The notes: generated by a model from the letters alone, not told the origin. Shown: positions 23,209 to 43,955, counted from the stretch's first letter. The stretch is DNA of 64,000 bases from Halosegnis rubeus (GCF_009184545.1 NZ_QJOW01000005.1:62001-126000), one strand, 5' to 3'. Translations and numbers: made by a program.

Positions 23209-23483
23209 ACGGCGTCATCACGGCGATTGCAGTCGTCAAGTTCGTAATCCTGCTTCTCGGTGGCGGGATTACCTATATTGCATTTAAAGCCTATCGACGT
23301 ACGGGTGCGGATTCGCTACGTGTCCTTGGTGTCGGGTTCGGTATCATCACACTCGGGGCAATTCTAACTGGCGTGGCCAACCAGTTCTTTTCTGTCGGAT
23401 TGGCCCTCGGCGTGCTCATCAACAGCCTGTTCGTCGCCCTTGGCCTCGCGGTCATCATGTACTCGCTGTATATCCAGAAATGA
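23205..23483 (+). CDS. three-helix membrane protein paired with a winged-helix regulator (copy 2)
   Basis: A 92-residue protein of three membrane helices (VVKFVILLLGGGITYIAF; VLGVGFGIITLGAILTG; LFVALGLAVIMYSLYI) and a short basic loop (KAYRRTGADS). It is a paralog of the product at 4848-5123. It starts within the stop of the winged-helix gene and its own stop overlaps the ATG of the next gene at 23480, so three genes form one tight operon. A sensor that tethers the regulator is a reasonable guess, without direct support. Confidence 0.82.
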   Translation: MNGVITAIAVVKFVILLLGGGITYIAFKAYRRTGADSLRVLGVGFGIITLGAILTGVANQFFSVGLALGVLINSLFVALGLAVIMYSLYIQK

Positions 23484-24802
23484 ACCCCGTTCCGAATGTT
23501 GCCGTTCCTGATCTCCGTCGGGGTAGCTACCTAATCCTTTTCGGCGTTGTTCTGTTCGTTCTCACGCTTGTTAGCAGTGCAATGCTCGCCCCTGCGATTG
23601 GGACGGCTTCGGAGACAGACCAGACGTCCCGAACCTTGGTCGGGTCTCAGGGGGGTGGCCCAGGCTGGCACGAATACGGCAGCGTCTATCTTCTCAACGG
23701 GACGAACACTACCTGGCGTGAATCGAGTGCTGATAGCTATTTTGACGTCACACAAACGGAGAACGGAACAGTGTTAGCCGGGTTCATGGACAGCGGGTAC
23801 GCTTCGTGCGGACCGTACGAGTCTCCCTGTACCCGAACGGGATTCCGAGTCATTGACCCCGGGAAAGACCTGCAGGTGGTTTCGGAGTATAGCTTCCCGG
23901 TGCGAACGAACAAGAACAGCGAAGTCCACGATGTCGAACGACTCGAATCGGGAGAATACTTGGTCACCGATATGGAGTACGAGCGTATCTTTACTGTCAA
24001 GAACGGCGAAGTCACGTGGCAGTGGAATGCGAGTTCGTTCTACGACGCCCCACAAGATCCGACGACGACCGACTGGCTGCACATCAACGACGTGGACGTC
24101 ATCGGCTCTGGGCGCTATCTCGTCTCAGTACGGAATGCCAACCAGCTACTCGTTATCGAGCGCGGCGAGGGCGTCGTTGAGGTTATCAATGAGGATACGA
24201 CCGATTCGAACGATGCCAATTGCCGGAAATCCGGCCAGTTGAACGACTATGACAATGATGGCGATATTCGATGCGGTGACCCCGACGTGCTCAACCACCA
24301 GCACAACCCCCAGTGGCTCGGGGATGGTGCCGTCCTCGTTGCCGACAGCGAGAACGACCGAGTCGTGGAACTGCATCGAACGGAGGGCGGTAAATGGGAG
24401 CCAGCGTGGGCTCTTGATCGGGCAGCGGGTGTCGAGCTCGATTGGCCCCGGGATGCGGATCGCCTCCCGAACGGAAACACGCTTATCACCGACACGCTCA
24501 ACCGGCGACTCGTAGAGGTCGACGAATCCGGGACTGTCGTCTGGAGCGTTCGAACAGAGCGTATCCCATACGAAGCCGACCGACTGCCCTACGGTGAGTC
24601 TGTCGGAGCCCCGAAGTACACGACTAACGGAAGCAGCGTCGACAGCCCTGACGCCGGCGTGCCGGTTCTCTCACTACTGCTGGTCGGGCTTCGGGCAGTC
24701 GTTCCGTCAACGCCATTCTGGTTCCGGGAACCACAACTTGGACTGACGCTTGTCTCTACACTCCTCATTGTCGTCGGCGGAGTTGATCGTATTCGTAACT
24801 AA
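23480..24802 (+). CDS. arylsulfotransferase-like beta-propeller membrane protein
   Basis: A 440-residue protein with an N-terminal anchor (YLILFGVVLFVLTLVSSAML), a propeller domain outside the cell (about residues 60-390) and a C-terminal helix (LGLTLVSTLLIVVGGV). Propeller blades show phrases typical of the arylsulfotransferase (ASST) family: LHINDVDVIGSGRYLVSVRN, NHQHNPQWLGDGAVLVADSEN and DWPRDADRLPNGNTLITDT. The His in HDVERL or NHQHN may be the sulfate-carrying residue. ASSTs move sulfate between phenols, but many archaeal relatives are simply propeller proteins. It is coupled to the regulator/membrane pair before it. Confidence 0.78.
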   Translation: MNPVPNVAVPDLRRGSYLILFGVVLFVLTLVSSAMLAPAIGTASETDQTSRTLVGSQGGGPGWHEYGSVYLLNGTNTTWRESSADSYFDVTQTENGTVLAGFMDSGYASCGPYESPCTRTGFRVIDPGKDLQVVSEYSFPVRTNKNSEVHDVERLESGEYLVTDMEYERIFTVKNGEVTWQWNASSFYDAPQDPTTTDWLHINDVDVIGSGRYLVSVRNANQLLVIERGEGVVEVINEDTTDSNDANCRKSGQLNDYDNDGDIRCGDPDVLNHQHNPQWLGDGAVLVADSENDRVVELHRTEGGKWEPAWALDRAAGVELDWPRDADRLPNGNTLITDTLNRRLVEVDESGTVVWSVRTERIPYEADRLPYGESVGAPKYTTNGSSVDSPDAGVPVLSLLLVGLRAVVPSTPFWFREPQLGLTLVSTLLIVVGGVDRIRN

Positions 24803-25208: not shown

Positions 25209-26144
25209 TTAGTGGGAGTGATTCGTCGTACCGACAGGGTCAGTATCGGGATCGGTACGCCCGACGAGCTCCACGGTTGCGTGGTCGATTCCTCGATTCG
25301 TGAGATAGTCGTGAACCCGTGACTGGATTCTCCGTTGCTCCTCGAGTGTGGTCGACGTATCTGTCAGTCGGACGGTTGCGACGGTGAGTTGACTACAGAC
25401 TTGCCAGACGTGGAGATCCTCAATCTGGTCGACGCCATCGAGTGTCGTCAATTCATCCCGGAGTTCTTCGGACGACACCGGGCTCCGTTCCAACAGGATC
25501 GAGGTGCTTTCCCGGAGGACGTTCCCGGCCGACGCGAGCACCAGCAGCCCAATGAGTACGGCCGCCACAGGGTCTGCGATGGGGAGATCGAACACTGCGA
25601 CGGCGGCGGTCGAGACGATTACCGCAACAGAGCCACCGGCGTCACCGAGCAGGTGGTAGAACGCCCCGCGCTCGTTGAGACTCATCTCACCACCCTGCAA
25701 CACGTACACGGAGCCGATGTTTACCAGCAGGCCACCCGTAGCGATGATCAGCGTCAACTCGGGATTGATCGCCACTGGCTCAAGGAACCGCTGGTAGGAC
25801 TCCCAGACGATGTATCCGACCATTGGAAGGAGCAAGACGCCGTTCAGGAAGGCCGCAACCGGCTCCAGTCGGTGGAGACCGTACGACCACGCCTCGCCAC
25901 CCTCGAACCGTTCGGCGGTGTAGCTCGCGCCGAACGCCATCGCGTACGCCAGCATATCGAACAGCATGTGGAGTGCGTCGCTGATAAGCGCGACCGACCC
26001 GAACAGGAGTCCACCAGCCAGTTCGATGACGAATCCAAAGAAATTGACGACCGCGACGAGCGCAAGCCGACGCGTACTGCCACTTGATTTAGACGGGAGG
26101 TTGTGCTCTGCGGTCTCCTCATCAGTATGCTCGTGAAGGGTCAT
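25209..26144 (-). CDS. cation diffusion facilitator (CzcD/ZitB-like)
   Basis: A 311-residue zinc/cobalt/cadmium-proton antiporter. Six membrane helices are expected, with the metal site formed by SDALHMLFD in helix 2 (D, H, D) and YHLLGDAGG in helix 5 (H, D). The ends are histidine-rich (N-terminal LHEHTDEETAEHN; C-terminal TNHSH). The cytoplasmic C-terminal domain has the CDF pattern LDGVDQIEDLHVWQVCSQLTVATVRL. It lies in the efflux operon with a P-type ATPase upstream and a SpoIIAA-like gene downstream, consistent with export of the same metals. Confidence 0.95.
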   Translation of the reverse strand: MTLHEHTDEETAEHNLPSKSSGSTRRLALVAVVNFFGFVIELAGGLLFGSVALISDALHMLFDMLAYAMAFGASYTAERFEGGEAWSYGLHRLEPVAAFLNGVLLLPMVGYIVWESYQRFLEPVAINPELTLIIATGGLLVNIGSVYVLQGGEMSLNERGAFYHLLGDAGGSVAVIVSTAAVAVFDLPIADPVAAVLIGLLVLASAGNVLRESTSILLERSPVSSEELRDELTTLDGVDQIEDLHVWQVCSQLTVATVRLTDTSTTLEEQRRIQSRVHDYLTNRGIDHATVELVGRTDPDTDPVGTTNHSH

Positions 26145-26604: not shown

Positions 26605-29292
26605 TTACCCCTCCGAAGCGCTGGTTTCGGTGTCTGTCTCCGGCGTGATTCGAGAGAGTCGCATCGCGTTCCCGGTGACGGCCGTCGTCATTCCGGCATC
26701 GCCAGCGAGGACGGCGAGCCAGATCGGGACGTATCCGAACGGGACTGCGACTGCCAGCCCGGCTTTGACAGCGAGACTCGACCAGATGTTCTGTCGGATG
26801 ACCCCGTTCGCATCGTGTGCGAGTTCGTAGAGGTACGGGAGCTTTGCGAGGTCATCACCCATCAAGGCGATGTCGGCGGTCTCCAATGCGGTATCAGTCC
26901 CGGCAGCCCCCATCGCCACGCCGACTGTGGCGGTGGCGAGCGCCGGTGCGTCGTTGATGCCGTCACCGACCATCGCAACGCCGTCGTACTCCTCGACGAG
27001 CTCCTCGATCGCCGTCACCTTGTCCTCGGGGAGTAATTCGGCCTGGTACTCGTCGACGCCGACCTGTTCGGCGATCGCGCGGGCAGTCCGCTCATTGTCA
27101 CCCGTCAGCATCACCGTTCGGGAGACGCCGAGTTGCTTGAGTCGCGTCACTGTTCGCTTCGCTTCGGGTCGGATCTCGTCGGCGACTGCGATGACGCCTT
27201 CGAGTTCGTCTTCGGTTCCAACGAGGACAACGGTCTTCCCTTCTGCTTGGAGTTCGGGAACGGTCTCGTCGAGAAGGTCGAGGCAGTTGTTCCGGTCGCA
27301 TATCTGCCGAGCTGTCTGGGTGACGACACCGCCGTCAGTGGTCGCGTGGACGTGTGATAGGTCGAATCCCAGCTCCTCGAACAGCCCCGGCTTGCCAGCG
27401 AAGTGGGGCGTCCCGTCGAGGTCGGCCCGGACGCCCTTGCCGGTGATGCTCTCGAAATCATCGATCTCGCGCTCGGCGACTCCCATGCTGCCGGCCTCAG
27501 CGACGATCGCCTCGCCGATGGGATGTTCGCTCCGTTGTTCGAGCCCGCGGGCACACCGGAGGACGTCTTCCTCCGAATTTTCGTTTAATGGAACGACGTC
27601 AGTGACGGTGAGCTCACCTTTCGTGAGCGTCCCCGTTTTGTCGAAGGCGACGACGTCGACGGCCCCCATCGCTTCGAGGTGGTTGCCGCCCTTGATCAGG
27701 ACGCCGTTCTTCGCGGCGCTCGTAATTCCCGACACGACGGACACGGGTGTCGAGATGACGAACGCACACGGGCAGGCCAGTACCAGTAACGTCAACCCGT
27801 AGACGACGGCCGTGGGCCAGGTCGTGCCGAGAACGTACGGGCTTCCCACCGTCGTCAAAATGGCGAAGGCAACGACGACTGGCGTGTAGTACGTTGAGAA
27901 GCGTTCGACGAATTGCTCGCGCTCGGTCTTGTTCGACTGGGCATCCTCGACCATCTCCACGATTCGCGAGAGCGTGTTATCACCGGCTTCAGAGGTAACC
28001 TCTACCTCAAGATAGCCCTCTTCGTTGATCGTGCCGGCGTATACCTCATCTCCCATCGTCTTGTCGACGGGTACGCTTTCGCCTGTGATGGGTGCCTGAT
28101 TGACGGCGCTTTCACCGTCGACGACGGTTCCGTCCATCGGGATCTTCTCCCCCGGTTTGACGACGACCACGTCGCCGACAGCGACCTCGTCGACAGGAAC
28201 TGTCTCCGTGGTATCGTCCCGTTTGACGGTTGCCTCATCCGGTGAGAGGTCCATCAACTCCCGGAGCGAGTTCCGAGCGCGATCCATCGAGTACCGCTCC
28301 AGCAGCTCGGCGATACTGAACAGGAACGCGAGGGTGGCCGCCTCGAAGTAGAGCGCCTCACCGAAGGCGAGGCTCGCAACGAGTGCTCCGAGGATAGCCA
28401 CCGACATCAGGAAGTCGATATCGAGGTTCAGATTCCGAGCGGAGTAGTAGCCGTTGCGGAAGATCTCCTGACCACCGGACGCGACGGCAACGAGGAACAG
28501 TACGTCGGCGACGAGCAGCTCCGTTCCGAGAAGGCTTGCAAGCTGTACATTCTGCCCGGTCAGGAAGAACTCGAAGAGCAAGCCGAGAGCGACGAATCCA
28601 CCGCTGATCCACGTCTTGAGTGCTCGTGGACTCGTCCAGATGCTCTCGCGTTCCTCAGTCGGGTCCTGCCGTCCTGATTCGTCGCTCGACGTGTCTGTAA
28701 CCTTGTACCCGGCACGTTCGATAGCGCCGATGATATCGGCTTCTCCAGTCCTCGAAGAATCGTACGTGACGACGACGGTTCCGGTCGTCGGCTGGGTTTC
28801 GAATGTTGTAATTCCCTCGACCCTCTCGAGAGCGTTCTCGATTTTGCCAGCACACGACGGGCAATCCATTTCCGGAACCGTGAATTTCGAGGACACTTCG
28901 CCGGTGTCCTCCACGGTGTACCCGGCCTTTTCGACCCGATTAGCAATCGCGGTGGCACTCGTTTGTTCGCCGTCGTATGAAACGGTCAGCGTCCCTTTCG
29001 TCACTTGCGGGTCGACGCTGCGGATTCCGTCCAGTTTTTCGACGCTGTTCTCTACCTTTCCTGCACAGGATGGACAATCCATCTCCGGGACCGCGAATTG
29101 TGCAACGTCCCCTTGGTCTATGGGTGGAGAAACGTCGTCGACGCCCTGTTCTGTGTGTTGGGCGTGTTCGTGATCACTGTGGTCGTGGTCATGCGTGTGA
29201 CTATGCTCGTGGGACCCTTCTTCGTGTTCGTGGGCGCGATCCGGTGGCTCACCACTCCTGTTGTGGGAATCGTCGTCGGGGGAGGTCATCAC
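26605..29292 (-). CDS. zntA: zinc/cadmium/lead P-type ATPase with two HMA domains
   Basis: An 895-residue P1B ATPase. The first 50 residues are His-rich (HEHEEGSHEHSHTHDHDHSDHEH). Two HMA domains follow, each with MDCPSCAGK (C73/C76 and C144/C147). The membrane core carries CPC at 507-509 in ACPCAFVISTP, the form typical of ZntA/CadA pumps for Zn(II), Cd(II) and Pb(II). D551 in DKTGTLTKGE is phosphorylated; GDGINDAPALATA is intact. A 40-residue insertion (about residues 655-695, with two Cys: CDRNNC) lies in the nucleotide-binding domain. It heads a four-gene operon with its own leaderless promoter. Confidence 0.95.
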   Translation of the reverse strand: MMTSPDDDSHNRSGEPPDRAHEHEEGSHEHSHTHDHDHSDHEHAQHTEQGVDDVSPPIDQGDVAQFAVPEMDCPSCAGKVENSVEKLDGIRSVDPQVTKGTLTVSYDGEQTSATAIANRVEKAGYTVEDTGEVSSKFTVPEMDCPSCAGKIENALERVEGITTFETQPTTGTVVVTYDSSRTGEADIIGAIERAGYKVTDTSSDESGRQDPTEERESIWTSPRALKTWISGGFVALGLLFEFFLTGQNVQLASLLGTELLVADVLFLVAVASGGQEIFRNGYYSARNLNLDIDFLMSVAILGALVASLAFGEALYFEAATLAFLFSIAELLERYSMDRARNSLRELMDLSPDEATVKRDDTTETVPVDEVAVGDVVVVKPGEKIPMDGTVVDGESAVNQAPITGESVPVDKTMGDEVYAGTINEEGYLEVEVTSEAGDNTLSRIVEMVEDAQSNKTEREQFVERFSTYYTPVVVAFAILTTVGSPYVLGTTWPTAVVYGLTLLVLACPCAFVISTPVSVVSGITSAAKNGVLIKGGNHLEAMGAVDVVAFDKTGTLTKGELTVTDVVPLNENSEEDVLRCARGLEQRSEHPIGEAIVAEAGSMGVAEREIDDFESITGKGVRADLDGTPHFAGKPGLFEELGFDLSHVHATTDGGVVTQTARQICDRNNCLDLLDETVPELQAEGKTVVLVGTEDELEGVIAVADEIRPEAKRTVTRLKQLGVSRTVMLTGDNERTARAIAEQVGVDEYQAELLPEDKVTAIEELVEEYDGVAMVGDGINDAPALATATVGVAMGAAGTDTALETADIALMGDDLAKLPYLYELAHDANGVIRQNIWSSLAVKAGLAVAVPFGYVPIWLAVLAGDAGMTTAVTGNAMRLSRITPETDTETSASEG

Positions 29293-29624: not shown

Positions 29625-30029
29625 TCAATCAGATGTTGTTTCCGACGTCTCTGCTGTCGATACCGTTGCGCGGGTCTTCCTTCGAACGAAGCCTACCCAG
29701 ACAAGTGCACCAACGAGACACAGGATACCAGCGATCGCAATCGATTGACCGCGGATTGTCGTCCCGGTCTGGTTCTGTGTGATCAGCAAGATACCGATGC
29801 CGAAGAGGACGAATCCTTGAACACCTGCTGCTTTCGCTGGTTCAGTAATATACTCCGCCTCTGTGAGAATGCCAGCAACAGATCCGACGAACAACAACAG
29901 TCCCGCAACAGAGACAGGACGAAGGCCGAGAACGACACCGACCTCCGAGAGAGCAAATCCAATAGCGACAAAGAGTGGCCATGGACTCGCTCCCGTGAAG
30001 GTTGAATCCGTGTCTTCGGAATCGCTCAT
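29625..30029 (-). CDS. four-helix membrane protein, resembling haloarchaeal cox-cluster proteins
   Basis: A 134-residue protein with four predicted membrane helices and charged ends: SPWPLFVAIGFALSEVGVVLGL, PVSVAGLLLFVGSVAGI, GVQGFVLFGIGILLI and IAIAGILCLVGALVWVGFV. The start (MSDSEDTDSTFTGASPWPLF) resembles small proteins annotated in haloarchaea as belonging to cytochrome-oxidase clusters, though no oxidase gene is in this window. Its leaderless promoter at 30055-30069 shares a motif with the zinc ATPase promoter. Confidence 0.75.
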   Translation of the reverse strand: MSDSEDTDSTFTGASPWPLFVAIGFALSEVGVVLGLRPVSVAGLLLFVGSVAGILTEAEYITEPAKAAGVQGFVLFGIGILLITQNQTGTTIRGQSIAIAGILCLVGALVWVGFVRRKTRATVSTAETSETTSD

Positions 30030-30239: not shown

Positions 30240-30389
30240 ATGTGCATCTACTGCGACGCCTACGAAGAAGAGCGAGAAACGGAGAGTCAGTCTCCAGTCG
30301 AAGACAACCACTCTGAACAAAAGACTACTTCCACGCTGTCAAAGGGAGCGTTTGGACAACTTCGTTCTTCGCTAGCAGATCTGTTGTAA
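30240..30389 (+). CDS. 49-residue protein with an N-terminal CIYC motif
   Basis: A short frame encoding MCIYCDAYEEERETESQSPV, then a Ser/Glu-rich stretch and a hydrophobic end (GAFGQLRSSLADLL). The CxxC at the N-terminus could hold a metal as half of a site in a dimer. A well-spaced TATA box (30209-30215) supports expression. It is below the size usually reported and is easy to miss. It stands ahead of a gene for another CxxC protein at 30511. Confidence 0.5.
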   Translation: MCIYCDAYEEERETESQSPVEDNHSEQKTTSTLSKGAFGQLRSSLADLL

Positions 30390-30510
30390 CCGACCATTCT
30401 GGCCATTGATGACGCCACGTAGGTCGATACGCGAGCGGAGAAGTTCGAACGTCGAACCAGAACGGTTTCAACGCTGACTGGCCTACGGCCGAATAACAGC
30501 TTTCGAGAGT

Positions 30511-30777
30511 ATGTCATACGAAGGCACTACGGTTCCACGGCGTGACTCACCTGCAGGGGAGTGTGATTACTGTGGGCATCCGTTCCCGACGACCGACCGC
30601 CTCGTCCTCCACAAAGGCTTAGAACATCCCCAAGAGCTGGATGACGACGAGGAGGACGCATTCCTCTCTGCCCGAGCAGACGAAGAAGACGAGTTGCGTA
30701 CACTCCGTCTGAAAGCGCTTGGAGCCCTCGTGCTCCTGTACTTCGGTCTTCTATTCATGTATGCTATCTTTGCCTGA
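30511..30777 (+). CDS. zinc-finger protein with C-terminal membrane helix
   Basis: An 88-residue protein with one C2H2-type finger (CDYCGHPFPTTDRLVLHKGLEH, about residues 18-39), an acidic linker (EDAFLSARADEEDELRTLRL) and one C-terminal membrane helix (ALGALVLLYFGLLFMYAIF). The finger would face the cytoplasm. This build recurs in haloarchaea near respiratory and metal genes. Its last 17 bases overlap the start of the next gene, so the two are translationally coupled. Confidence 0.85.
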   Translation: MSYEGTTVPRRDSPAGECDYCGHPFPTTDRLVLHKGLEHPQELDDDEEDAFLSARADEEDELRTLRLKALGALVLLYFGLLFMYAIFA

Positions 30778-32272
30778 CTCAGATACGAACACCGGGGCAA
30801 GCGAAGAGGTACACATAGAGTCAGGTCCAGGGTCGAGGCTTCGTCATTGGGTCGTCTCGAACACGAAGCTCAGACTCTTCGTACAGTTTGTACTCTGGGT
30901 CTCGATACTGACGCTGTTTACCGAAACAGTCGCTGCCGGTAACGGGATGACGCTCTCGAAGCAGCCTCGGGATACCCTTGCCGTTCCCCGATGGCTGTAT
31001 CTTGCCACTGGCGGCGCCACGATCGGCGCCTCTGCCCTACTTGCGAGCTTCGTTACTGATCGAGCCTTTATCCGCTATCTCCACAACTGGTCACTCCCCG
31101 GTCCGACGGTCGACGACTGGTGGACACCGATTCGATGGATCGGACGTAGTTTTGGGATTGTCGTCCTTGGACTGGCAGTGTATCTCGGACTGACCGGACC
31201 GCAGCTCCCGACAGCAAGCTTCACCATTCTCGTCACATTTGTCGTCGTTCGAGCGGGCTTGCCGATGCTTACGTATCTTGGAGGGAACGTTTGGCCAGCA
31301 CTGAACCCCTGGCGAGGGATCGTCTCGCTTCTCCCAGCTGGACACAGAACGTATCCAAGAGAATTAGCCCGATGGCCAGCTGTCGGTGGCCTATTACTCC
31401 TTGTGTGGATTGAGGTGATTTTCCCTGTCAGCACGATTCCGTCAATTCTTTCGCTTGCGATCCTCGGCTACAGTGCCGTCACAATCGCAGGCGCAGTACT
31501 CTTCGGTCCTGACGCGTGGTTCGAGAACGCAGATCCGTTATCCGTCCTGTTCCGATTTTTCGGGGCTGTCGCCCCTGTAAAACGGCGGGACGGGAAGCTC
31601 ACTGTAAAACTGCCCGGTAGCGACCTGACTGACTCAGACTTAATCACGGACACCTCCGATGTTGCGTTCGTCATTGCGCTGATTTGGGAGCTCACGTACA
31701 GCGGCTTCATCACGACGCAGACGGGCGCAGCAACTACCGAGGCACTCGTCAGCCTCTCCAATATTGGAGTGGGAGCCGTACAGATTCGTGCGATCCTCAT
31801 CTACACACTCCTTTTCGTCAGTGGCTACGTCGTTTTCTTCGCCGCGTATTGGTATGCGGGCGTACTCTCTCGGCGACGGACCGGGACATACATCACAGCG
31901 AAACGTATCGCCTTTCGGTTTGCACCCTCGCTATTGGCCATCGCAGCGGGATATCACCTCGCCCACTACACCGGACTGGCTGTATCCCTCAGTCCGGCTC
32001 TAGGCATGGCAATTCTCTCTCCACTGTCGCCCCCAGCGAATCCCCTGACATTGTCTCCACCTGGGTGGTTCGAGGGTTTGAGTATCGCCTACGTGCTCAT
32101 CGGGCATCTCCTCGCTATCTGGGCAGCGCACGCGACCGCCTACGAACTCTTCTCGAGTCGTCTCGTCGCAATCCGGAGCCAGTACCCGTTCATCGGTGTG
32201 ATGATCGGGTACACCGTTATTAGCCTCTGGATTCTCTCACTTCCAGGAGCGACGCCCCCATATCTACCCTGA
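30761..32272 (+). CDS. large polytopic membrane protein (about 12 helices)
   Basis: A 503-residue membrane protein of unknown function. The ATG at 30761 is preferred because the frame before it is occupied by the zinc-finger gene. Conserved-looking loops include GGNVWPALNPWRGIVSLLP, FGPDAWFENADPLSVLFRFF, and YHLAHYTGLAVSLSPALG with two histidines. The number of helices and these Trp/Pro-rich loops suggest a permease or membrane redox protein. It does not show the RExxE motif of Ftr1 iron permeases. Given the P19-like and peroxidase-like neighbours, metal transport is a fair guess. Confidence 0.8.
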   Translation: MLSLPDSDTNTGASEEVHIESGPGSRLRHWVVSNTKLRLFVQFVLWVSILTLFTETVAAGNGMTLSKQPRDTLAVPRWLYLATGGATIGASALLASFVTDRAFIRYLHNWSLPGPTVDDWWTPIRWIGRSFGIVVLGLAVYLGLTGPQLPTASFTILVTFVVVRAGLPMLTYLGGNVWPALNPWRGIVSLLPAGHRTYPRELARWPAVGGLLLLVWIEVIFPVSTIPSILSLAILGYSAVTIAGAVLFGPDAWFENADPLSVLFRFFGAVAPVKRRDGKLTVKLPGSDLTDSDLITDTSDVAFVIALIWELTYSGFITTQTGAATTEALVSLSNIGVGAVQIRAILIYTLLFVSGYVVFFAAYWYAGVLSRRRTGTYITAKRIAFRFAPSLLAIAAGYHLAHYTGLAVSLSPALGMAILSPLSPPANPLTLSPPGWFEGLSIAYVLIGHLLAIWAAHATAYELFSSRLVAIRSQYPFIGVMIGYTVISLWILSLPGATPPYLP

Positions 32273-32332
32273 TTCTGGTGGTTTCGAGAGAACAACGGAT
32301 CGCACACTAAGGTCAGAACTCAACCAGAAAGA

Positions 32333-33403
32333 TCACTCGGCAGTGAACTCAATCGGGTCCATGTCGAGAAACGCGGTTTCGTAGCCGTCGTGGCGCGCCA
32401 GTTGGGGTGGTGTCTCTACAGTGATTCTGACCGTATCGCCAGTCTTGAGTTCATCAATACCCATCCCATAGAAACTCCCGAGGTCAGGATCAAGGGACGC
32501 TTGGAGTGTCCCTTGTGTGATTGTATCCCCTCCACGGTCGAGTGTTGCTGAAAGAGCCATCCTCGGGAGCATCACGCGATTGTAGGGTGTGCGTGGAGAA
32601 ACGATTAGGAAGGGTCCTTCAGTATCACTAAACCGATGGTCACCGTCAACGAGAGCAACCAGCATCGTTGCGTCACCGGATTGCCCTTCGTGGAGTAGTC
32701 GACCGGGAAGCTCGGATTTTGTCGGCACGACCGGTTCAGGAATCATTTCCATATCCATTAGATCGACTGTCCCACGGGTGCCTGCTTTGTCCCCTAACCG
32801 GCGAATCTCCAAATTGTACGTCTCATCCGTATCGAACGTGAACTGCATCGTGGCAGACTGTCCCTCTGTAAATCGCCCGTTGAATGGACTCGTACGAGCT
32901 GTCTGCAACGGGCCAACCTGGAGCGTCACATCGTACTGTCCTTCCCCCGGGAGAGCGATATTGTCGCCGTAGTGGAACCCCATATTCGGCGAGATCATCG
33001 GCCAGAGGTTGGTCGAGGACACTCGACCGTCGCTGTTACTGATTTCGACAGAGACGTCGACCGGGAGGATCGTCTCCGTCTCGGTGTCCCAGACACTCGC
33101 CATCAGATGCACCGAATCATCCGACTGAACGACGACTTTCGTCTTTCGTGAGCCAGTGAGGTTCCAGAAACGGTGCGGGAAGGAGTGCATCAGTGCAAAT
33201 CCGAGACTGCCTGCCGTCGTCGTTCCGTACATTCCCATCCCTTCGATGATTGCCGGATAGTAGACCGCGTCAGGTCGATCCTCCACGATCGGTGGATCAC
33301 GCCATGCAGACTGCGTCTCGAATCCGAGCCGCCCCAGGCAACCAGACAGTACCAGGCCCCCCGAGAGAGCAGTCCCCTGTTTGAGAAACGTTCTCCGATT
33401 CAT
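32333..33403 (-). CDS. P19/Tp34-like metal-binding lipoprotein (copy 1)
   Basis: A 356-residue Tat-type lipoprotein (signal MNRRTFLKQGTALSGGLVLSGC). The first half resembles the P19/Tp34 iron- and copper-binding fold: MGMYG near the start, DDSVHLMASVWD, then LWPMISPNMGFHYGDNIALPG and GQYDVTLQVGP, with Met and His residues as likely copper or iron ligands. The second half is a further beta domain ending in PPQLARHDGYETAF. A paralog of similar length lies 230 bases upstream. In bacteria P19 works with iron permeases. Metal identity is not known. Confidence 0.8.
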   Translation of the reverse strand: MNRRTFLKQGTALSGGLVLSGCLGRLGFETQSAWRDPPIVEDRPDAVYYPAIIEGMGMYGTTTAGSLGFALMHSFPHRFWNLTGSRKTKVVVQSDDSVHLMASVWDTETETILPVDVSVEISNSDGRVSSTNLWPMISPNMGFHYGDNIALPGEGQYDVTLQVGPLQTARTSPFNGRFTEGQSATMQFTFDTDETYNLEIRRLGDKAGTRGTVDLMDMEMIPEPVVPTKSELPGRLLHEGQSGDATMLVALVDGDHRFSDTEGPFLIVSPRTPYNRVMLPRMALSATLDRGGDTITQGTLQASLDPDLGSFYGMGIDELKTGDTVRITVETPPQLARHDGYETAFLDMDPIEFTAE

Positions 33404-33505
33404 GTTCTCCTCTGAGATACTATGTTTGGTAGATTCATTGAGTCGACCTCGCTGTCGTCAACCGGGGGTTTCTGTAACTGCCAGCCTCGGCCATTCTGTG
33501 ACTGT

Positions 33506-33592
33506 CTACGCTAAGCGAACGACGAATCCGGTGAGTACCAGGAGTGAGACAACGCCAAGTAACGTCGCCAGTAGGAGGTGCTTCTCTTCCAT
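33506..33592 (-). CDS. 28-residue single-helix membrane peptide
   Basis: A very short frame, MEEKHLLLATLLGVVSLLVL then TGFVVRLA, which is one membrane helix with an acidic/basic N-terminus. It sits between the two P19-like genes on their strand, 41 bases after the upstream one. Such small membrane peptides often stabilise transporters. There is no good ribosome-binding site, so it is only tentatively a gene. Confidence 0.4.
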   Translation of the reverse strand: MEEKHLLLATLLGVVSLLVLTGFVVRLA

Positions 33593-33632
33593 AGATTTGG
33601 CTTCGGTTGGAATTCTAAAGACACCTTTGGAA

Positions 33633-34694
33633 CTACAACGTCACCTGCACATCTGGCATATCAACGAAGGCTGTCTCGTATCCTTCATGGCGAGCTGTTT
33701 GTGGGGGCGAATCGACCGTGATCGTCAGCTCATCTCCCGTCTGTACATCTGCGACCGTCGCTCCGTAGTGATAGCGGAGCTCTGGATCGATGGTTGCCTG
33801 TAGAATTCCGTCGAACACTGACATCCCGTCACGGTGCAGTGTTCCCGAAAGCGACATCATCGGCAGCATCGTTCGATTGTAGGGTGTGCGCGGAGAAACA
33901 GCGAGATACCTCTGCTCCTCGTCCCCACCGAAACGTGACGCGTCTTCGAGGATCGTAACCACGAACTTCGCGTCCCCACTCGTCCCCGAGCCACGAACGT
34001 CCCCCGGGAGCGCGTCCGGTGTCGGCACTTGCGAACTCGGTAACATCTCCATGTCCATCAGGTCGACAGCACCCTTCGTGCCTTCTCTGTCGTCGGGAAT
34101 GTCCGTATACGAGATCTCGTTGAGCGTCGATTCGCTGAATTCGAACTCGAACGTGAACGAGGCGTTCCCCTGATTCTCGGCCAGCGACCCCGTCCGTCGC
34201 GTCGACGGCCCGCCGATGCTGACCTCGACAGTGTATGTGCCGTCGCCCTGGAGCTGTGCGTTATCGCCGAAGTGAAACCCCATCGGCTGGGAGAGCATCG
34301 GCCACGGTGCGAACTGGTCGACCTGCTCGCCGTCCTGTGTAATCGTGAGCTGTGGATTGATATCGGGTGGGATGATCCCCGTCTGTGTCTCCCAAACGAC
34401 CGGCATCAGGTGAATCGAATCTTCGGATTGAATCTCGACCTTCGTGATCCCATTCGGCTTCATCAGCCAGAACCGGTGCGCATACGAGTACGTGAGCGCA
34501 CAACTGTACCCGCCCTGTTCCTTCATTCCGGGCATTTTCATGCCCTCGTAGTGGGTCGGATAGTAGACTGCGTCCGGGCGGTTCTCGGGGAGCGGTGGTG
34601 CCCGCGCTGACCGCGTCTCAAACAGGCCGGTACACCCCGCGAGCCCCACGAGTGACGTGCCCCCGACCGCCCGAAGCACGTCACGACGATTCAT
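33633..34694 (-). CDS. P19/Tp34-like metal-binding lipoprotein (copy 2)
   Basis: A 353-residue lipoprotein with signal MNRRDVLRAVGGTSLVGLAGC and the same plan as the protein at 32333-33403: EGMKMPGMKEQGGY (Met-rich), SEDSIHLMPVVWE, FAPWPMLSQPMGFHFGDNAQL and GTYTVEVSIGGP. It differs at its N-terminal Met pattern (KMPGM against GMYG), which could mean a different metal or oxidation state. Its start overlaps the end of the DyP-like gene by 14 bases (34681-34694), so the two are coupled. Confidence 0.82.
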   Translation of the reverse strand: MNRRDVLRAVGGTSLVGLAGCTGLFETRSARAPPLPENRPDAVYYPTHYEGMKMPGMKEQGGYSCALTYSYAHRFWLMKPNGITKVEIQSEDSIHLMPVVWETQTGIIPPDINPQLTITQDGEQVDQFAPWPMLSQPMGFHFGDNAQLQGDGTYTVEVSIGGPSTRRTGSLAENQGNASFTFEFEFSESTLNEISYTDIPDDREGTKGAVDLMDMEMLPSSQVPTPDALPGDVRGSGTSGDAKFVVTILEDASRFGGDEEQRYLAVSPRTPYNRTMLPMMSLSGTLHRDGMSVFDGILQATIDPELRYHYGATVADVQTGDELTITVDSPPQTARHEGYETAFVDMPDVQVTL

Positions 34695-35988
34695 GCGTCA
34701 CCTCCTGTGCGTTCTCGACCGGTCGCGCAGGCGGCAGCGAACGCAACGACCGTGGGGGGACGAGGAAATTACCGCGACGCTCCGTTCGGATGTACTGCAG
34801 GATGCCGTTGTTGTTTCGCTGACCGACGGCCGACTGCTCGGTGACGTCAGTGCCATTCATCGCTTCTCTCGTGTCGACGAAGTCGGTGATCCGTCGCTGG
34901 AGCGCAAGGAAGTGGAGGCTGGCGGTTTCACCGTCGGTAGAATCGAAGTCGCGCCGAAGGATGAGAGGCGAGTCATCGTCATCGCGAGCGCGGGCGGATT
35001 TCTGGGAGTGACCGACGACGCCCATCTCGCGGGCCGTCTCATCCGTTGGCTGACAGTCGTCGATTTTGCTGCTGGTTCCGAGATTGTCTCCAGCGCCCTC
35101 GATTACGTCGTTCTCGGCGTGGTACGGACAGAACATCTTCGCCTCACGCTGCCAGCGATCGTCCTGATTGTACCACTGATTGAGATTGAGCTGGAGCTTG
35201 GAGATGTGCTGGGTCGTTCCACCGGCGAACGGCCCCGACTGGATTGTCACGCGATCTTCACTGGCCTGGTTCTTTTTGAATCCCGATTTGAATCCCATAA
35301 ACAGCGGCGCGTCCTCTGGGACCTTATCTGCCGGAACACCCTCTGCATCGTCAGCATTCTCCGCCGGCAACCCGTCCCCAATAAAGCCCGTCCGCCGGTC
35401 GGCGATTGAGAAAACATCGGTCAGTGTAGCGTCAGGCTGATCGACACCGTTGAGGGTTGATTTGTTCCCTTTGAGGGCTTCTTCGGCACCGAGCACCACC
35501 TGTGCCGTGTTACTCGCGAGATGGACGACTGCATCGGGCGTATCGAACTCGGGATCCTCAAACGGCGCAAGTGCTTCTGGATCAGGGAGGTCAACGTCTT
35601 CGGGAAGCGATTCGTCGAATCGGTCGAAGTATGCCGGAGAATAACTCACCGTGAGCAATAACCCGCCCCCGCTTCGCTCGTAGGCGTGTTCGATCCCACG
35701 GAGAGCTGTTTCAACTTGGTCACGGTCGTCTTCGTTCGGGGGCCCGTCTCGTCGGTAATTTAGATAGAGGAGCACACGATGGCTCGGAGCGACGACGTTC
35801 CCGTGGTCGTCCCGTGGGAGGGCCTCATTCCAAGCGTGCTGACGTTGTGGATACGACGAGAGATCATCCGGCCCTGTTGGGACGTCAACATCTTCACGGC
35901 CTAAACAGGCACTGAATGCCGCTGCGCCTCCGATAGCGACGGCCGACTTGAGGAATTCTCTGCGAGGGATACCTCTCTCATCAGTCAT
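34681..35988 (-). CDS. DyP-peroxidase-like Tat lipoprotein
   Basis: A 435-residue exported protein (Tat RR at 9-10, lipobox C28) related to the dye-decolorising peroxidase/EfeB superfamily. Matching segments are LLTVSYSPAYFDRF (residues 111-124), GFKSG (232-236), GHSQK with the likely proximal heme ligand H327, PLILRRDFDS (341-350) and ASLHFLALQRRITDF (356-370). DyP enzymes carry GFKDG; here the catalytic Asp is Ser235, so peroxidase activity may be weak or changed. EfeB strips or oxidises iron beside the P19-like EfeO. Coupling to a P19-like gene supports a surface iron/copper uptake role. Confidence 0.72.
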   Translation of the reverse strand: MTDERGIPRREFLKSAVAIGGAAAFSACLGREDVDVPTGPDDLSSYPQRQHAWNEALPRDDHGNVVAPSHRVLLYLNYRRDGPPNEDDRDQVETALRGIEHAYERSGGGLLLTVSYSPAYFDRFDESLPEDVDLPDPEALAPFEDPEFDTPDAVVHLASNTAQVVLGAEEALKGNKSTLNGVDQPDATLTDVFSIADRRTGFIGDGLPAENADDAEGVPADKVPEDAPLFMGFKSGFKKNQASEDRVTIQSGPFAGGTTQHISKLQLNLNQWYNQDDRWQREAKMFCPYHAENDVIEGAGDNLGTSSKIDDCQPTDETAREMGVVGHSQKSARARDDDDSPLILRRDFDSTDGETASLHFLALQRRITDFVDTREAMNGTDVTEQSAVGQRNNNGILQYIRTERRGNFLVPPRSLRSLPPARPVENAQEVTHESS

Positions 35989-36064
35989 TGACGACAGTTA
36001 GGAAGCCAACGGAAAAGGCGGTTCTGGTAGAGTTCTTGAATCCCCGCTCAAGGTCGGTAGTAGA

Positions 36065-36652
36065 CTATCTGGTGATGAGCTTCTTCACCAAGTTCCACCC
36101 GATAAATCGGGGGGCCCGCTTGCGGTATTGCTCGTATTCCTGGCCATACTGCTCTCGCAGCCACGGTTCTTCGGCAAACGGGAACAGTGCGTACACGAGG
36201 ATGGTCAAGATGCCGTGTACAGCCAGTTTCCGGGAGTTCACTGCAATGATCGCGCCGACGATGAACGTAATGAATCCCACGCTCTGAGGGTTGCGCGTGT
36301 ACTGGTAGATACCGTTCGTCCGAAGTTCCCCTTCTCTTCCACTGCTTTCCATCCACCCAAGTTCGAAGAGTGCTGAGAGGGCAAATCCCATCCCGAGTGC
36401 GGCGATACCGCTACCCGTGAGTTTGCTCCAACGTTCGGTGAAAATGAAGGAGTCCCGATCGAGCGCGCCCAGCACGGGAAACCCAGCGAACACGACGGAG
36501 AGCGCTGACCAATTGAACCACCACCGCCAAGAGCTGTCACCGATGGGCCACACTCGACGGTCAGGATGAACCGCACTGATGGCGTACCCGAGAATCAGCG
36601 TGACATCCGCGACGACCGCCGTCAGGAGCGCACGATCTGAGAACGAGGACAT
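36065..36652 (-). CDS. membrane methyltransferase (ICMT/PEMT-like)
   Basis: A 195-residue protein with about five membrane helices. The C-terminal half has the isoprenylcysteine/phospholipid methyltransferase pattern: TNGIYQYTRNPQSVGFITFIVG (SAM-binding helix, R-N-P-Q) and PFAEEPWLREQYGQEYEQYRKR (E-E-x-x-L...Y-x-x-Y). These enzymes methylate membrane-bound substrates with S-adenosylmethionine. The ATG at 36652 (MSSFSDRAL) was chosen because the sequence upstream is not protein-like. It lies 76 bases upstream of the DyP-like gene on the same strand. The substrate is unknown. Confidence 0.85.
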   Translation of the reverse strand: MSSFSDRALLTAVVADVTLILGYAISAVHPDRRVWPIGDSSWRWWFNWSALSVVFAGFPVLGALDRDSFIFTERWSKLTGSGIAALGMGFALSALFELGWMESSGREGELRTNGIYQYTRNPQSVGFITFIVGAIIAVNSRKLAVHGILTILVYALFPFAEEPWLREQYGQEYEQYRKRAPRFIGWNLVKKLITR

Positions 36653-36822: not shown

Positions 36823-37161
36823 ATGGCGGGATTTGTCCCACTCCATAGCGGGTTTACCGGTTCGCAGTCCCTTCCGTTGCTCGTGGTGATCACCGCCGCG
36901 GCTGCGGGTACAGCGGTACTTCTGGGACTTGCGATCGGCGCGTTCGTTCAACGCCAATCCCGTCCATATCTGTTAATCGTCGCTGCATTGGCTGCCCTTC
37001 TTGGACGCTCTGCGGTTGCGGGGATCTCCATCGTAGGCCTGTTTTCACAAGCCGAGCATCACCTCCTCGAACACGGGCTTGATGTCATTCTTGTAGCGCT
37101 CGTTATTGCTGCAGTCTATCACTCCCGAACCATTTCGAACGAGACCAACTTCGATACATGA
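36823..37161 (+). CDS. membrane protein paired with a tandem winged-helix regulator
   Basis: A 112-residue protein with three or four membrane helices (LLVVITAAAAGTAVLLGLAIG; YLLIVAALAALLGRSAVAGI; GLDVILVALVIAAVYHS) and two histidines in EHHLLEH. Its stop overlaps the ATG of the winged-helix gene by four bases. This pairing mirrors the wHTH/membrane pairs at 4494-5123 and 22831-23483, in reversed gene order. The family resembles haloarchaeal proteins of unknown function. Confidence 0.8.
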   Translation: MAGFVPLHSGFTGSQSLPLLVVITAAAAGTAVLLGLAIGAFVQRQSRPYLLIVAALAALLGRSAVAGISIVGLFSQAEHHLLEHGLDVILVALVIAAVYHSRTISNETNFDT

Positions 37162-37676
37162 CACACCAACGTGACCGAATTCACGAGTATATTGCCACCC
37201 ACCCTGGAGAACACTTCAACGCGCTCACGCGGAGACTCGACCTCGCACCAGGACAGGTACAGTACCATCTCAGGAAACTCCAGAATCAAGAGAGAGTGGT
37301 CAACCTACCTCTCTATGGCCGGACCCACTATTACACACCGGAATATGATGCGTGGGAGCGGGGAGCAATCGCTGTCCTTCGCCGGGAAACAGCACGCGAC
37401 ATCTTATTCTGTGTTCTCGAACAGGGAACATCCAGCCCGAACGCTGTCACAGAGTCCCTCGGGATTGCTCGGGGAACCCTTGAGTGGCACTTGGATCATT
37501 TGACGGAACAGAATCTCATCGAGAAACACCGAGATGTCAATAATCACGTGACGCTGGTCGCAGCCGAGCGGACTGAGACCGCTCGCCTCCTCGAAGAGAT
37601 CTCCCCCTCGCTGTCCGATCGGATGATCGACCGGTTCACCCGCCTCGTCGATAACCTATTGGCGGATGGATCGTAA
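37158..37676 (+). CDS. regulator with two winged-helix domains
   Basis: A 172-residue protein with two consecutive winged helix-turn-helix units. Unit 1 (about 1-65) contains HPGEHFNALTRRLDLAPGQVQYHLRKLQNQ. Unit 2 (about 72-150) contains GTSSPNAVTESLGIARGTLEWHLDHLTEQNLI. The V-Q/E-W-Y/H-H-L pattern is typical of archaeal membrane-linked winged-helix repressors. It is translationally coupled to the membrane protein at 36823, which may control its activity. Confidence 0.9.
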   Translation: MTHQRDRIHEYIATHPGEHFNALTRRLDLAPGQVQYHLRKLQNQERVVNLPLYGRTHYYTPEYDAWERGAIAVLRRETARDILFCVLEQGTSSPNAVTESLGIARGTLEWHLDHLTEQNLIEKHRDVNNHVTLVAAERTETARLLEEISPSLSDRMIDRFTRLVDNLLADGS

Positions 37677-38417: not shown

Positions 38418-39470
38418 ATGGCGGACGCACCGGATACTGAACGGCAGGCGGTCGAGCCTGAGGCAGGAGACGTCCTCAGCGTGTCACAGCTGAACGACCG
38501 AATCGCCTCGGTCGTCGAGGATGCGCCTGCCCTCGACGGTGTCCGCTGTATTGGCGAAGTCACGGATCTCCATCAGAACAGTACAGCGCTCTACTTCACG
38601 CTTACCGATGGCGACGCCGAGCTCCCCTGTATGATCTGGGCAAACCGCTATCGGAAGATGGACGCCGAGCTCGAGGACGGGACTGAGGTCATCCTGGAAG
38701 GCGATATCGACTACTGGACTGAAGGCGGGAAAATCGACCTCAAGCCGTGGGAAGTGATCGTCGTCGGCGACGGCGACCAAGCGGCCGCGGTCGAGCGACT
38801 GCGCAGCGAGCTCGAAGAGCGTGGCTGGTTCGACGACGAGCAGAAACAGCGCCCGCCAGCGTTTCCGGAACGGGTCGGTGTTGTGACCTCACTCCGAGGG
38901 GATGCTCGGTACGACATCCAGAGCGCGATCCACGAGCAAGACCCTACAGTCGACATCCTGGTGAAGGATGCGACCGTCCAAGGGTCAGAGGCACCGACGT
39001 CTATCGCGAACGGGATTCACCATCTGGACCGCTCCGAGGACGTCGATTCAATTATCGTCGGCCGCGGCGGTGGGAGCGATTCGAACCTTCAGGCGTTCAA
39101 CACCGAGCGGGTCGCGGAAGCGATCTTCACCGCGAACACCCCGATCGTCACGGCAATTGGCCATACTGACGACCGGCTAATCGCGGATCGGGTAGCGGAT
39201 ATGGCCGCGATCACACCGACAGCGGCCGGCGAGTACATCGCGAAGTCTCGGAATGACTTCCTGGCTAGCGACATTGGCCCGCTTGAGCAACAGCTTGAGG
39301 CCGCGTACGAGACCTTTGAACAGGAGCACGAACACGAACAGGAACTGGCCGAGGCAGTCGAAGAGGCGACCGCGCCTGAGGGCCTGTCGCCAGTTTACTA
39401 CAAGGTTGCAATTGTCGTGCTCCTAGTGCTGTTGCTGCTCATTACTGCACTCTGGCTGGGGGTGATCTAA
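38418..39470 (+). CDS. xseA: exonuclease VII large subunit with an extra C-terminal membrane helix
   Basis: A 350-residue XseA, shorter than bacterial forms (about 450). Residues 18-115 are the OB-fold (LSVSQLNDRIASVVED, IGEVTDLHQNSTALYFTLTD, LEGDIDYWTEGGKIDL). The catalytic part has PERVGVVTSLRGDARYDI, IIVGRGGGSDSNLQAFN and IVTAIGHTDDRLIADRVAD, the GRGGGS and GHTDD family signatures. The long bacterial coiled coil is shortened, and residues about 327-350 form a hydrophobic helix (KVAIVVLLVLLLLITALWLG) that would anchor the enzyme in the membrane. With XseB it degrades single-stranded DNA into oligonucleotides. Confidence 0.93.
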   Translation: MADAPDTERQAVEPEAGDVLSVSQLNDRIASVVEDAPALDGVRCIGEVTDLHQNSTALYFTLTDGDAELPCMIWANRYRKMDAELEDGTEVILEGDIDYWTEGGKIDLKPWEVIVVGDGDQAAAVERLRSELEERGWFDDEQKQRPPAFPERVGVVTSLRGDARYDIQSAIHEQDPTVDILVKDATVQGSEAPTSIANGIHHLDRSEDVDSIIVGRGGGSDSNLQAFNTERVAEAIFTANTPIVTAIGHTDDRLIADRVADMAAITPTAAGEYIAKSRNDFLASDIGPLEQQLEAAYETFEQEHEHEQELAEAVEEATAPEGLSPVYYKVAIVVLLVLLLLITALWLGVI

Positions 39471-39473
39471 TCG

Positions 39474-39656
39474 ATGGCAAAAGACACGGACATCAGGAGT
39501 CGGATGAACCGAATCGAAGAGATTATCGACCAACTCGACGCGGATGAGGTGTCACTTGATGAAGGGAGTGAGCTGTACGAGGAAGGGCAGGAGTTACTAA
39601 CTGAAATCCGCGAGCGACTCCACGAAGGCCAGGGCGAGGTCATCGAGATCAAATGA
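39474..39656 (+). CDS. xseB: exonuclease VII small subunit
   Basis: A 60-residue acidic helical protein (IRSRMNRIEEIIDQLDADEV, SLDEGSELYEEGQELLTEIRERL), matching XseB, which binds the coiled-coil region of XseA in a multi-copy complex. It starts three bases after the xseA stop, so the two are co-translated. The shortened coiled coil of XseA means the complex geometry may differ from the bacterial one. Confidence 0.92.
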   Translation: MAKDTDIRSRMNRIEEIIDQLDADEVSLDEGSELYEEGQELLTEIRERLHEGQGEVIEIK

Positions 39657-43053: not shown

Positions 43054-43955
43054 TGATCAGAGAACATTCAGAATCCCATGACCGGAATTCGGAACGGTGG
43101 ATTAGTCGACGCCGTCTTTTGGCTTCGTCTGGAACAGCCCTGCTTGCAGGAGTAGCAGGGTGTTCCGGAACCGATGGTCCCGGCAACCAGACTGAATCCC
43201 CAACAGGTTCGTCCTCTACGTCGCCGTCTACAGATTCGGTATTTGAGGAAATCAGCTTCGCGGGACCCAACCTTGTGGTGACGCTGGCTGATGATCACGA
43301 TGTCGACCAACTCAATCTGATTGGTCCAGATGGTACTACGTTCGAACAGTCAACCGTTGCACAGGGAGCTACAAGAGTCGAAATACAGATTGTCTTCAAG
43401 ACTGGTGGGACGTACTCTGCCGGCGAGTACGAGTTAGTCGCCGTTTCGGGCGAGACATCTGAGTCGATGTCCCTGGAGCTTCGGCCCGATATCCAGATCG
43501 TCGATGTCGAACCGGAGTTCGATGAAGATGATGGCTACAGTAGCGGTCGGCTCTTTGTGACGGTCGAGAACGTCGGTACTGGTCCCTCTTGGGTGTATAA
43601 TATTGGCTTCCGGAATGCGCCGTATCGGAACGCACCTGAGGTAATCGAAGGAGACGGCGTTGCTGATACCACGTTCGAGCGTCCGGAGGCGAGCGAAGAA
43701 TTCCTCAGCCCCGGTACTGAACGGGAATTCCTGAAACAACGGGGTGTTCTCGTCATCGATGACAACGACGATGTCTCATGTGAGAGTGATACTGCAGAAT
43801 TAACCGTTGTTGTTCAGACCCCACACGGAGATATTGAGCAACCGATTCGGGCGGAACTGTCCGGTGGATACCACATCGACGATCAAGGCGCAATCCAACA
43901 CCCGTGTAAAGACGTCCAGATTGAACTACTGGACGGGGGTGGAGACAATGCGTAG
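43053..43955 (+). CDS. Tat lipoprotein with CARDB-like domain
   Basis: A 300-residue lipoprotein (RRRLLASSGTALLAGVAGC). It starts inside the stop of the previous gene (TAATG) and ends inside the start of the next, so it is fully built into the transfer operon. The C-terminal half contains RLFVTVENVGTGPSWVYNIG, typical of CARDB/archaeal immunoglobulin-like domains. Two conserved-looking Cys (VSCESD and HPCKD) may pair. The coding sequence looks less GC-rich than the T4SS ATPase genes. Confidence 0.75.
   Translation: MIREHSESHDRNSERWISRRRLLASSGTALLAGVAGCSGTDGPGNQTESPTGSSSTSPSTDSVFEEISFAGPNLVVTLADDHDVDQLNLIGPDGTTFEQSTVAQGATRVEIQIVFKTGGTYSAGEYELVAVSGETSESMSLELRPDIQIVDVEPEFDEDDGYSSGRLFVTVENVGTGPSWVYNIGFRNAPYRNAPEVIEGDGVADTTFERPEASEEFLSPGTEREFLKQRGVLVIDDNDDVSCESDTAELTVVVQTPHGDIEQPIRAELSGGYHIDDQGAIQHPCKDVQIELLDGGGDNA

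Follow-up and report, generated by a model that had tools for sequence, protein, structure and literature searches.

Bacterial P19, and in other systems EfeB, are iron-uptake proteins encoded beside the permease FTR1. The EfeUOB and FtrABCD systems combine an FTR1/EfeU permease with an extracytoplasmic metal-binding protein and, in EfeUOB, with a DyP-type haem protein. The iron (Mn) site of P19 consists of Glu3, Glu44, Asp46 and Asp92 (PMC9174327), and the distal Asp of DyPs deprotonates H2O2, according to a review (PMC7611857). Haloarchaeal copper and iron acquisition is poorly known, and a near-universal haloarchaeal pair, a P19-like lipoprotein (P19b) with a DUF7405 protein, lacks a named function.

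A locus of Halosegnis rubeus (GCF_009184545.1, NZ_QJOW01000005.1:62001-126000) was analysed within a window of 64,000 nucleotides, the whole stretch of DNA to which all positions refer. It resembles EfeUOB and FtrABCD in its putative extracytoplasmic metal-binding proteins and, for EfeUOB, in its predicted DyP-type haem protein, but differs from them in that no FTR1/EfeU permease was found in 147 genomes of the order and a 12-helix orphan membrane protein (O3) accompanies only some copies. The EfeO domains (cupredoxin and M75) gave no Pfam match in ten proteins of the locus. An earlier note had proposed a counterpart of the EfeUOB or P19 iron systems lacking a known permease; the P19 and DyP relationships and the absence of FTR1 stood, but iron became the less likely metal, carboxylates of the site being replaced. 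The reading favoured here, tentatively, is a haloarchaeal extracytoplasmic soft-metal module, with Cu(I) the likeliest metal, in which two usually separate units were joined by a mobile metal-resistance plasmid; for this module we infer the metal, its direction of movement and the function of O3. Pfam already listed the families as DUFs, and their members are publicly annotated as 'iron transporter' and 'Dyp-type peroxidase domain-containing protein'. What is new is the division into two units, the loss of both the DyP Asp and the P19 iron site throughout the families, an order sample without FTR1, and a membrane protein that belongs to no known family and has a conserved His/His/Met set.

Gene content and distribution of the two units

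The features listed in the earlier note (a 12-helix protein, two P19/Tp34-like lipoproteins, a DyP-like Tat lipoprotein, a methyltransferase and tiny ORFs) were all recovered in place. The first, a 49-aa MCIYC ORF (30240..30389, plus strand), is of uncertain coding status: its coding score was weak (0.6), making it the weakest gene of the locus, and homologues with 71–100% identity were found in seven island copies, with none detected in L129 and L130, two of the three island copies compared. It is followed on the same strand by a DUF7410-like peptide with a C2H2 zinc finger and one transmembrane segment (30511..30777; PF24166, E 0.0026, below cut-off), the end of which overlaps the start of O3 (30761..32272); DUF7410 was a recurrent partner of O3, with 14 members in the survey. 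The minus strand encodes P19a, a lipoprotein with a Tat-type signal (32333..33403), a 28-aa single-helix peptide, MEEKHLLLATLLGVVSLLVLTGFVVRLA (33506..33592), which is kept in six island copies (L126–L130 and L184), P19b, a lipoprotein of the DUF7405-linked group (33633..34694), the DUF7405 protein, a Tat lipoprotein with a DyP fold (34681..35988), and a membrane methyltransferase of the PEMT/ICMT type (36065..36652; PF04191, 4.4e-13). Both P19-like proteins carry PF10634 and a C-terminal DUF7350 domain. On the plus strand follow a DUF7471 small membrane protein, the recurrent neighbour of DUF7405 (36823..37161; PF24283, 2.8e-28), and a winged-helix regulator with an HVO_0163-type N-terminal domain (37158..37676; PF24266, 1.8e-35), co-conserved with DUF7471 and DUF7405. 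In most comparisons of locus genes with diverged island copies dN/dS was well below 0.2, and the DyP-like gene gave a dN of 0.026 and a dS of 0.31 against such a copy. The locus genes were taken to be real because of these low ratios and because their linkage is far over chance.

Among 147 genomes of the order, DUF7405 was found in 127, DUF7350 in 121 and O3 in 105, and all 35 DUF7405-bearing genomes of a phylum-wide sample came from the same order. FTR1 (EfeU) scored above cut-off in none of the 147 (four bacterial controls were positive), as expected from the proposal that the standard permease is lacking. Linkage within 6 kb was observed for DUF7405 with DUF7350 in at least 75/150 cases and for O3 with DUF7350 in 37/139, about 0.3% being expected by chance, so that the gene association seen in the window is kept in other genomes. 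Oxidase genes lay within 6 kb of DUF7405 in 0/150 cases, and most DUF7405 copies were without O3 nearby.

In a tree of 148 DUF7350 lipoproteins, P19a belonged to a 33-member clade (support 0.99), as did 21 of the 22 DUF7350 copies adjoining O3 alone; P19b fell outside it. Context changed 14 times on this tree, against 39 times for shuffled labels (minimum 34). Judged from this phylogeny and from gene context, the lipoprotein pair of the locus is the product of two merged units, P19b with DUF7405 and the P19a clade with O3. A single paired P19 system, as the word 'paired' in the earlier note implied, was rejected, since the two lipoproteins belong to separate tree groups with different partners. 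Unit 1 comprises P19b and DUF7405, often with the DUF7471/winged-helix pair, which recurs with DUF7405, and is order-wide; unit 2 comprises P19a, DUF7410 and O3, and is present by itself on other plasmids, some of which have a P1B ATPase gene in the same run. The methyltransferase had also been counted as a member of the module; it is confined to the island copies and L180, and was discarded as a core part in favour of an island accessory outside the conserved core. A membrane protein of the NnrU family, encoded in divergent orientation, was observed beside rhizobial P19-cupredoxin-FTR1 loci (L207 and L210) and may parallel the PEMT/ICMT methyltransferase of the island.

P19-like lipoproteins and the DyP-like protein

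PF10634 (Iron_transport) scored 38.4 bits with P19a and 29.7 bits with P19b (gathering cut-off 21), and DUF7350 scored 188 and 192 bits, respectively. With the lipoprotein profile, structures of FtrA and of P19 were matched at E values down to 1.8e-7, and the profile–profile alignment of the DUF7350 lipoproteins with nine bacterial P19s scored 72, against 14–18 for reversed or column-shuffled controls, which bears out the P19 relationship of both lipoproteins. The likeness to P19, FtrA, FetP and Tp34 extends to the PF10634 domain, the aligned metal-binding core and the export of a metal-site protein. Unlike P19, the DUF7350 lipoproteins end in an additional domain, DUF7350, in which R335, H336 and E340 do not vary, and they lack an FTR1 partner.

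The residues H95, M97, M133, M138 and H141 (P19b numbering) were invariant in 148/148 DUF7350 lipoproteins, and the bacterial motifs HLEAD and DGPH aligned with HLMxx and MGFH. The copper-side ligands of P19 are said, from work by Chan et al. in 2010, to be His42, Met88, His95 and His132; the first three align with H95, M133 and H141, which we take to be the copper-side positions of the DUF7350 lipoproteins, and a counterpart of His132 was not seen in the alignment with the nine bacterial P19s. The iron side differs: Glu44 is replaced by Met97 and Asp92 by Met138, where all nine bacterial P19s have Glu and Asp, and the position of Asp46 is occupied by a non-acidic residue (S/T/V/A/I at 99). 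A His2Met3 soft-metal site, suited for example to Cu(I), is predicted from these residues, and through it the lipoproteins may bind metal at the cell surface by His95, Met97, Met133, Met138 and His141, as the alignment with bacterial P19 suggests. Ligands of this kind would suit a soft metal, Cu(I) for instance, better than iron. Alternatively, Met at these positions may reflect adaptation to high-salt conditions.

The same positions bear on uptake of iron in the manner of EfeUOB or FtrABCD, in which O3 would be a new permease replacing FTR1, the P19-like lipoproteins would bind ferrous iron and DUF7405 would act as an EfeB-type haem protein. The role of bacterial P19 and EfeB beside FTR1, the public label 'iron transporter' for the lipoproteins and the kinship of DUF7405 with DyPs are all in keeping with such a system, and EfeB-like proteins may draw iron from haem, for which a different active site may be needed. 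However, with two of the P19 iron-site carboxylates replaced by invariant Met (97 and 138) and a third by a non-acidic residue, an iron system becomes less likely, and O3 is missing near most DUF7405 copies and is found with oxidases or P1B ATPases instead. Iron uptake of this kind was consequently judged unlikely, and the system is probably of a copper type or otherwise altered, to go by its residues, and not a standard iron importer. If P19b and DUF7405 do handle copper, the label 'iron transporter' on haloarchaeal DUF7350 proteins is misleading.

The DUF7405 profile scored 549 bits with the DyP-like protein, and PF20628 (Dyp_perox_C) 19.5 bits, just under its cut-off of 20. The AF2 model (pLDDT 84) matched DyP structures with an E value of 4.8e-17 and a probability of 1.00, confirming the suspected DyP relationship of this Tat lipoprotein, and the best 50 PDB matches were all DyP or EfeB proteins, including Sphingomonas EfeB. 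The sequence-profile match to deferrochelatase structures was weak (E 0.04), and the DyP homology is based on fold and residue alignment for that reason. Both folds that the earlier note staked its case on, P19 and DyP, were thus recovered, and the genes were found linked, not unrelated, in other genomes.

D235, H329 and R347 of E. coli EfeB aligned with S235, H327 and R345, and the GFKSG noticed earlier indeed stands where EfeB has GFKDG. The loss of the catalytic Asp extends beyond this protein to the whole family: Asp was present in 0/88 DUF7405 rows, drawn from two alignments of 37 and 51 with partly overlapping lineages, and position 235 was S or A in 85 of them and G, N or V in the others. 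The predicted haem ligand H327, together with the distal R345 and with R346, was invariant in both alignments. DUF7405 therefore shares with type A DyPs of the EfeB kind the fold, the Tat signal, the proximal His and the distal Arg, and differs from EfeB in that the Asp of GXXDG is nearly always Ser or Ala, and never Asp, and in its additional conserved FxPxH (H290) and H359. Because the acid–base Asp is missing, DUF7405 would not be an ordinary H2O2-cleaving DyP, and since this is the residue that deprotonates H2O2, it would hardly run through the usual cycle of a peroxidase. From its fold and residues it is predicted to bind haem by His327 and may serve as a redox or haem-linked partner of the lipoproteins. 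Should the copper reading be true, a DyP relative without the catalytic Asp would be an example of the re-use of a haem fold.

The membrane protein O3

No match to O3 was found in Pfam, in NCBIfam, in the PDB profile search or by fold comparison, and the candidates FTR1 and other known permeases were discarded on these grounds. The AlphaFold model (mean pLDDT 81) is almost wholly helical. Among archaeal and bacterial homologues, His402, His449 and Met481 were conserved in 36/36 and His457 in 34/36; all four fall within the last three helices, where the helix limits taken from the model put His402, His449 and Met481 at comparable depths. Given the lack of a known fold match, a new transport system at the locus is possible.

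COX1 lay within 6 kb of O3 in 22/139 cases, where chance would likewise give about 0.3%, and O3 was also found near genes for plastocyanin and for a NosD-domain protein. Archaeal relatives adjoin the haem-copper oxidase genes COX1, COX2 and COX3, with O3–DUF7410 pairs in several chromosomes, and in this they resemble haem-copper oxidase accessory genes; O3 differs from these, assembly factors included, in matching no known family or solved fold. One bacterial homologue (L215) has the gene of a PCu(A)C copper chaperone as its neighbour, and several others lie in clusters with no obvious copper enzyme, with nicotinate dehydrogenase or methanol dehydrogenase; a role confined to copper is weakened by these nicotinate and methanol clusters.

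The most likely role of O3 is as a path across the membrane for metal or for electrons, either one. In the favoured soft-metal reading, O3 would pass metal, or electrons to the metal, across the membrane by way of His402, His449 and Met481, and might supply cuproenzymes such as the terminal oxidase; if so, it is a concrete candidate for the movement of copper (or electrons) to terminal oxidases. A more specific version, which we consider unlikely, makes the locus an FTR1-less variant of the P19 and EfeB systems, in which the Met-substituted P19 and the Asp-less DyP haem protein would handle Cu(I) at the surface and O3 would be the founder of a new family of membrane transporters for metal (copper), with members in bacteria too, that feeds haem-copper oxidases and other copper enzymes. 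O3 might instead not be a transporter but carry electrons across the membrane, with haem b or a quinone link at His402, His449 and His457, so that the metal, or the haem of the DyP-like protein, is reduced or oxidised on the outside. Three conserved intramembrane His in archaeal and bacterial homologues would suit such a carrier, as would the differing kinds of oxidoreductase cluster in which the bacterial homologues occur, but O3 resembles no known cytochrome family in sequence or fold, and the conserved Met at similar depth also suits a copper site; we regard the carrier as improbable.

On alpha-proteobacterial plasmids (L226, L227 and L215), O3 homologues were seen together with genes for nicotinate/6-hydroxynicotinate catabolism and for a liv transporter. 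On two mycobacterial plasmids (L217 and L223), an O3 homologue lies near genes for a copper hydrocarbon monooxygenase of the pmo/amo type.

Plasmid island and neighbouring metal genes

The window segment is part of a plasmid that resembles pNG600. Its O3 and DUF7405 proteins recur unchanged on Haloarcula marismortui pNG600 and on a Halobaculum roseum plasmid. Over 23636-44694 (21 kb) its DNA is shared at 100% identity by contigs from Haloarcula japonica, Haloarcula amylovorans and Halorussus marinus, and pieces taken close to either end of the window also match two or three of those genomes at 100%. Since 21 kb are 100% identical across genera, the segment probably moved between genera very recently; contamination of the assemblies is a less likely source of the identity.

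The same metal island encodes a CDF efflux protein (25209..26144, minus strand; PF01545, 3.8e-46) and a P1B-type heavy-metal ATPase with two HMA domains and a His-rich N terminus (26605..29292, minus strand; PF00122/PF00702/PF00403). P1B-2 ATPases are defined by CPC in TM6, K in TM7 and DxG in TM8. The island ATPase has the PIB-2 (Zn/Cd/Pb-class) motifs CPC and K843...DAG and neither MxxSS nor YN of the Cu class, and as a Cu exporter it was rejected on these motifs. With Zn/Cd-type efflux genes on its own segment, import can be no more than a possible direction for the module. On one plasmid each of Haloferax mediterranei and H. larsenii, homologues of P19a, DUF7410 and O3 stand on one strand in a run with an annotated heavy-metal P-type ATPase, and the ATPases of such O3 operons resemble the island ATPase at the C terminus. 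In sharing a segment with the ATPase, and in these two Haloferax runs, the locus is akin to P1B-2 ATPase/CDF plasmid loci; P19-like, DyP-like and O3 proteins are not known to belong to such efflux loci.

These neighbours would be explained if the module were an accessory of metal resistance, with the P19-like lipoproteins buffering, outside the cell, whatever metal (Zn, Cd, Pb, Ag or Cu) the P1B ATPase and the CDF protein export, and with O3 assisting export. The common segment, the Haloferax runs and the spread of near-identical copies between genera are consistent with it; however, the P19b–DUF7405 unit is near-universal in the order, unlike a typical resistance gene, and usually has no adjoining ATPase, so that we hold such an accessory role to be quite unlikely. 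Confidence in the copper-type reading is itself limited by the Zn/Cd/Pb class of the ATPase and the CDF gene beside it, both of which speak against copper, as do the missing counterpart of His132 and the lack of oxidase genes near DUF7405, and because a search of the literature at hand found no expression or biochemical data on these families and no mention of DUF7405. That search found nothing direct on the 12-helix protein or on haloarchaeal P19, and a paper on the haloarchaeal silver-stress transcriptome did not discuss these genes.

A DUF7541 small membrane protein with a sub-threshold Cyt_c_ox_IV match (29625..30029, minus strand; PF24396, 2.9e-37) is encoded between the ATPase and the locus. 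A homologue adjoins DUF7410, O3 and COX1 on the chromosome of a relative (L113), and for this reason an oxidase-linked set seems to have been copied onto the plasmid. Genes for the large and small subunits of exonuclease VII (38418-39656; xseA and xseB in the pNG600 annotation) adjoin the metal island, an arylsulfotransferase-like protein is encoded beside it (23480-24802; PF14269/PF05935), and the same plasmid carries a TrbL/VirB6-like conjugation protein (43948-45321; PF19590).
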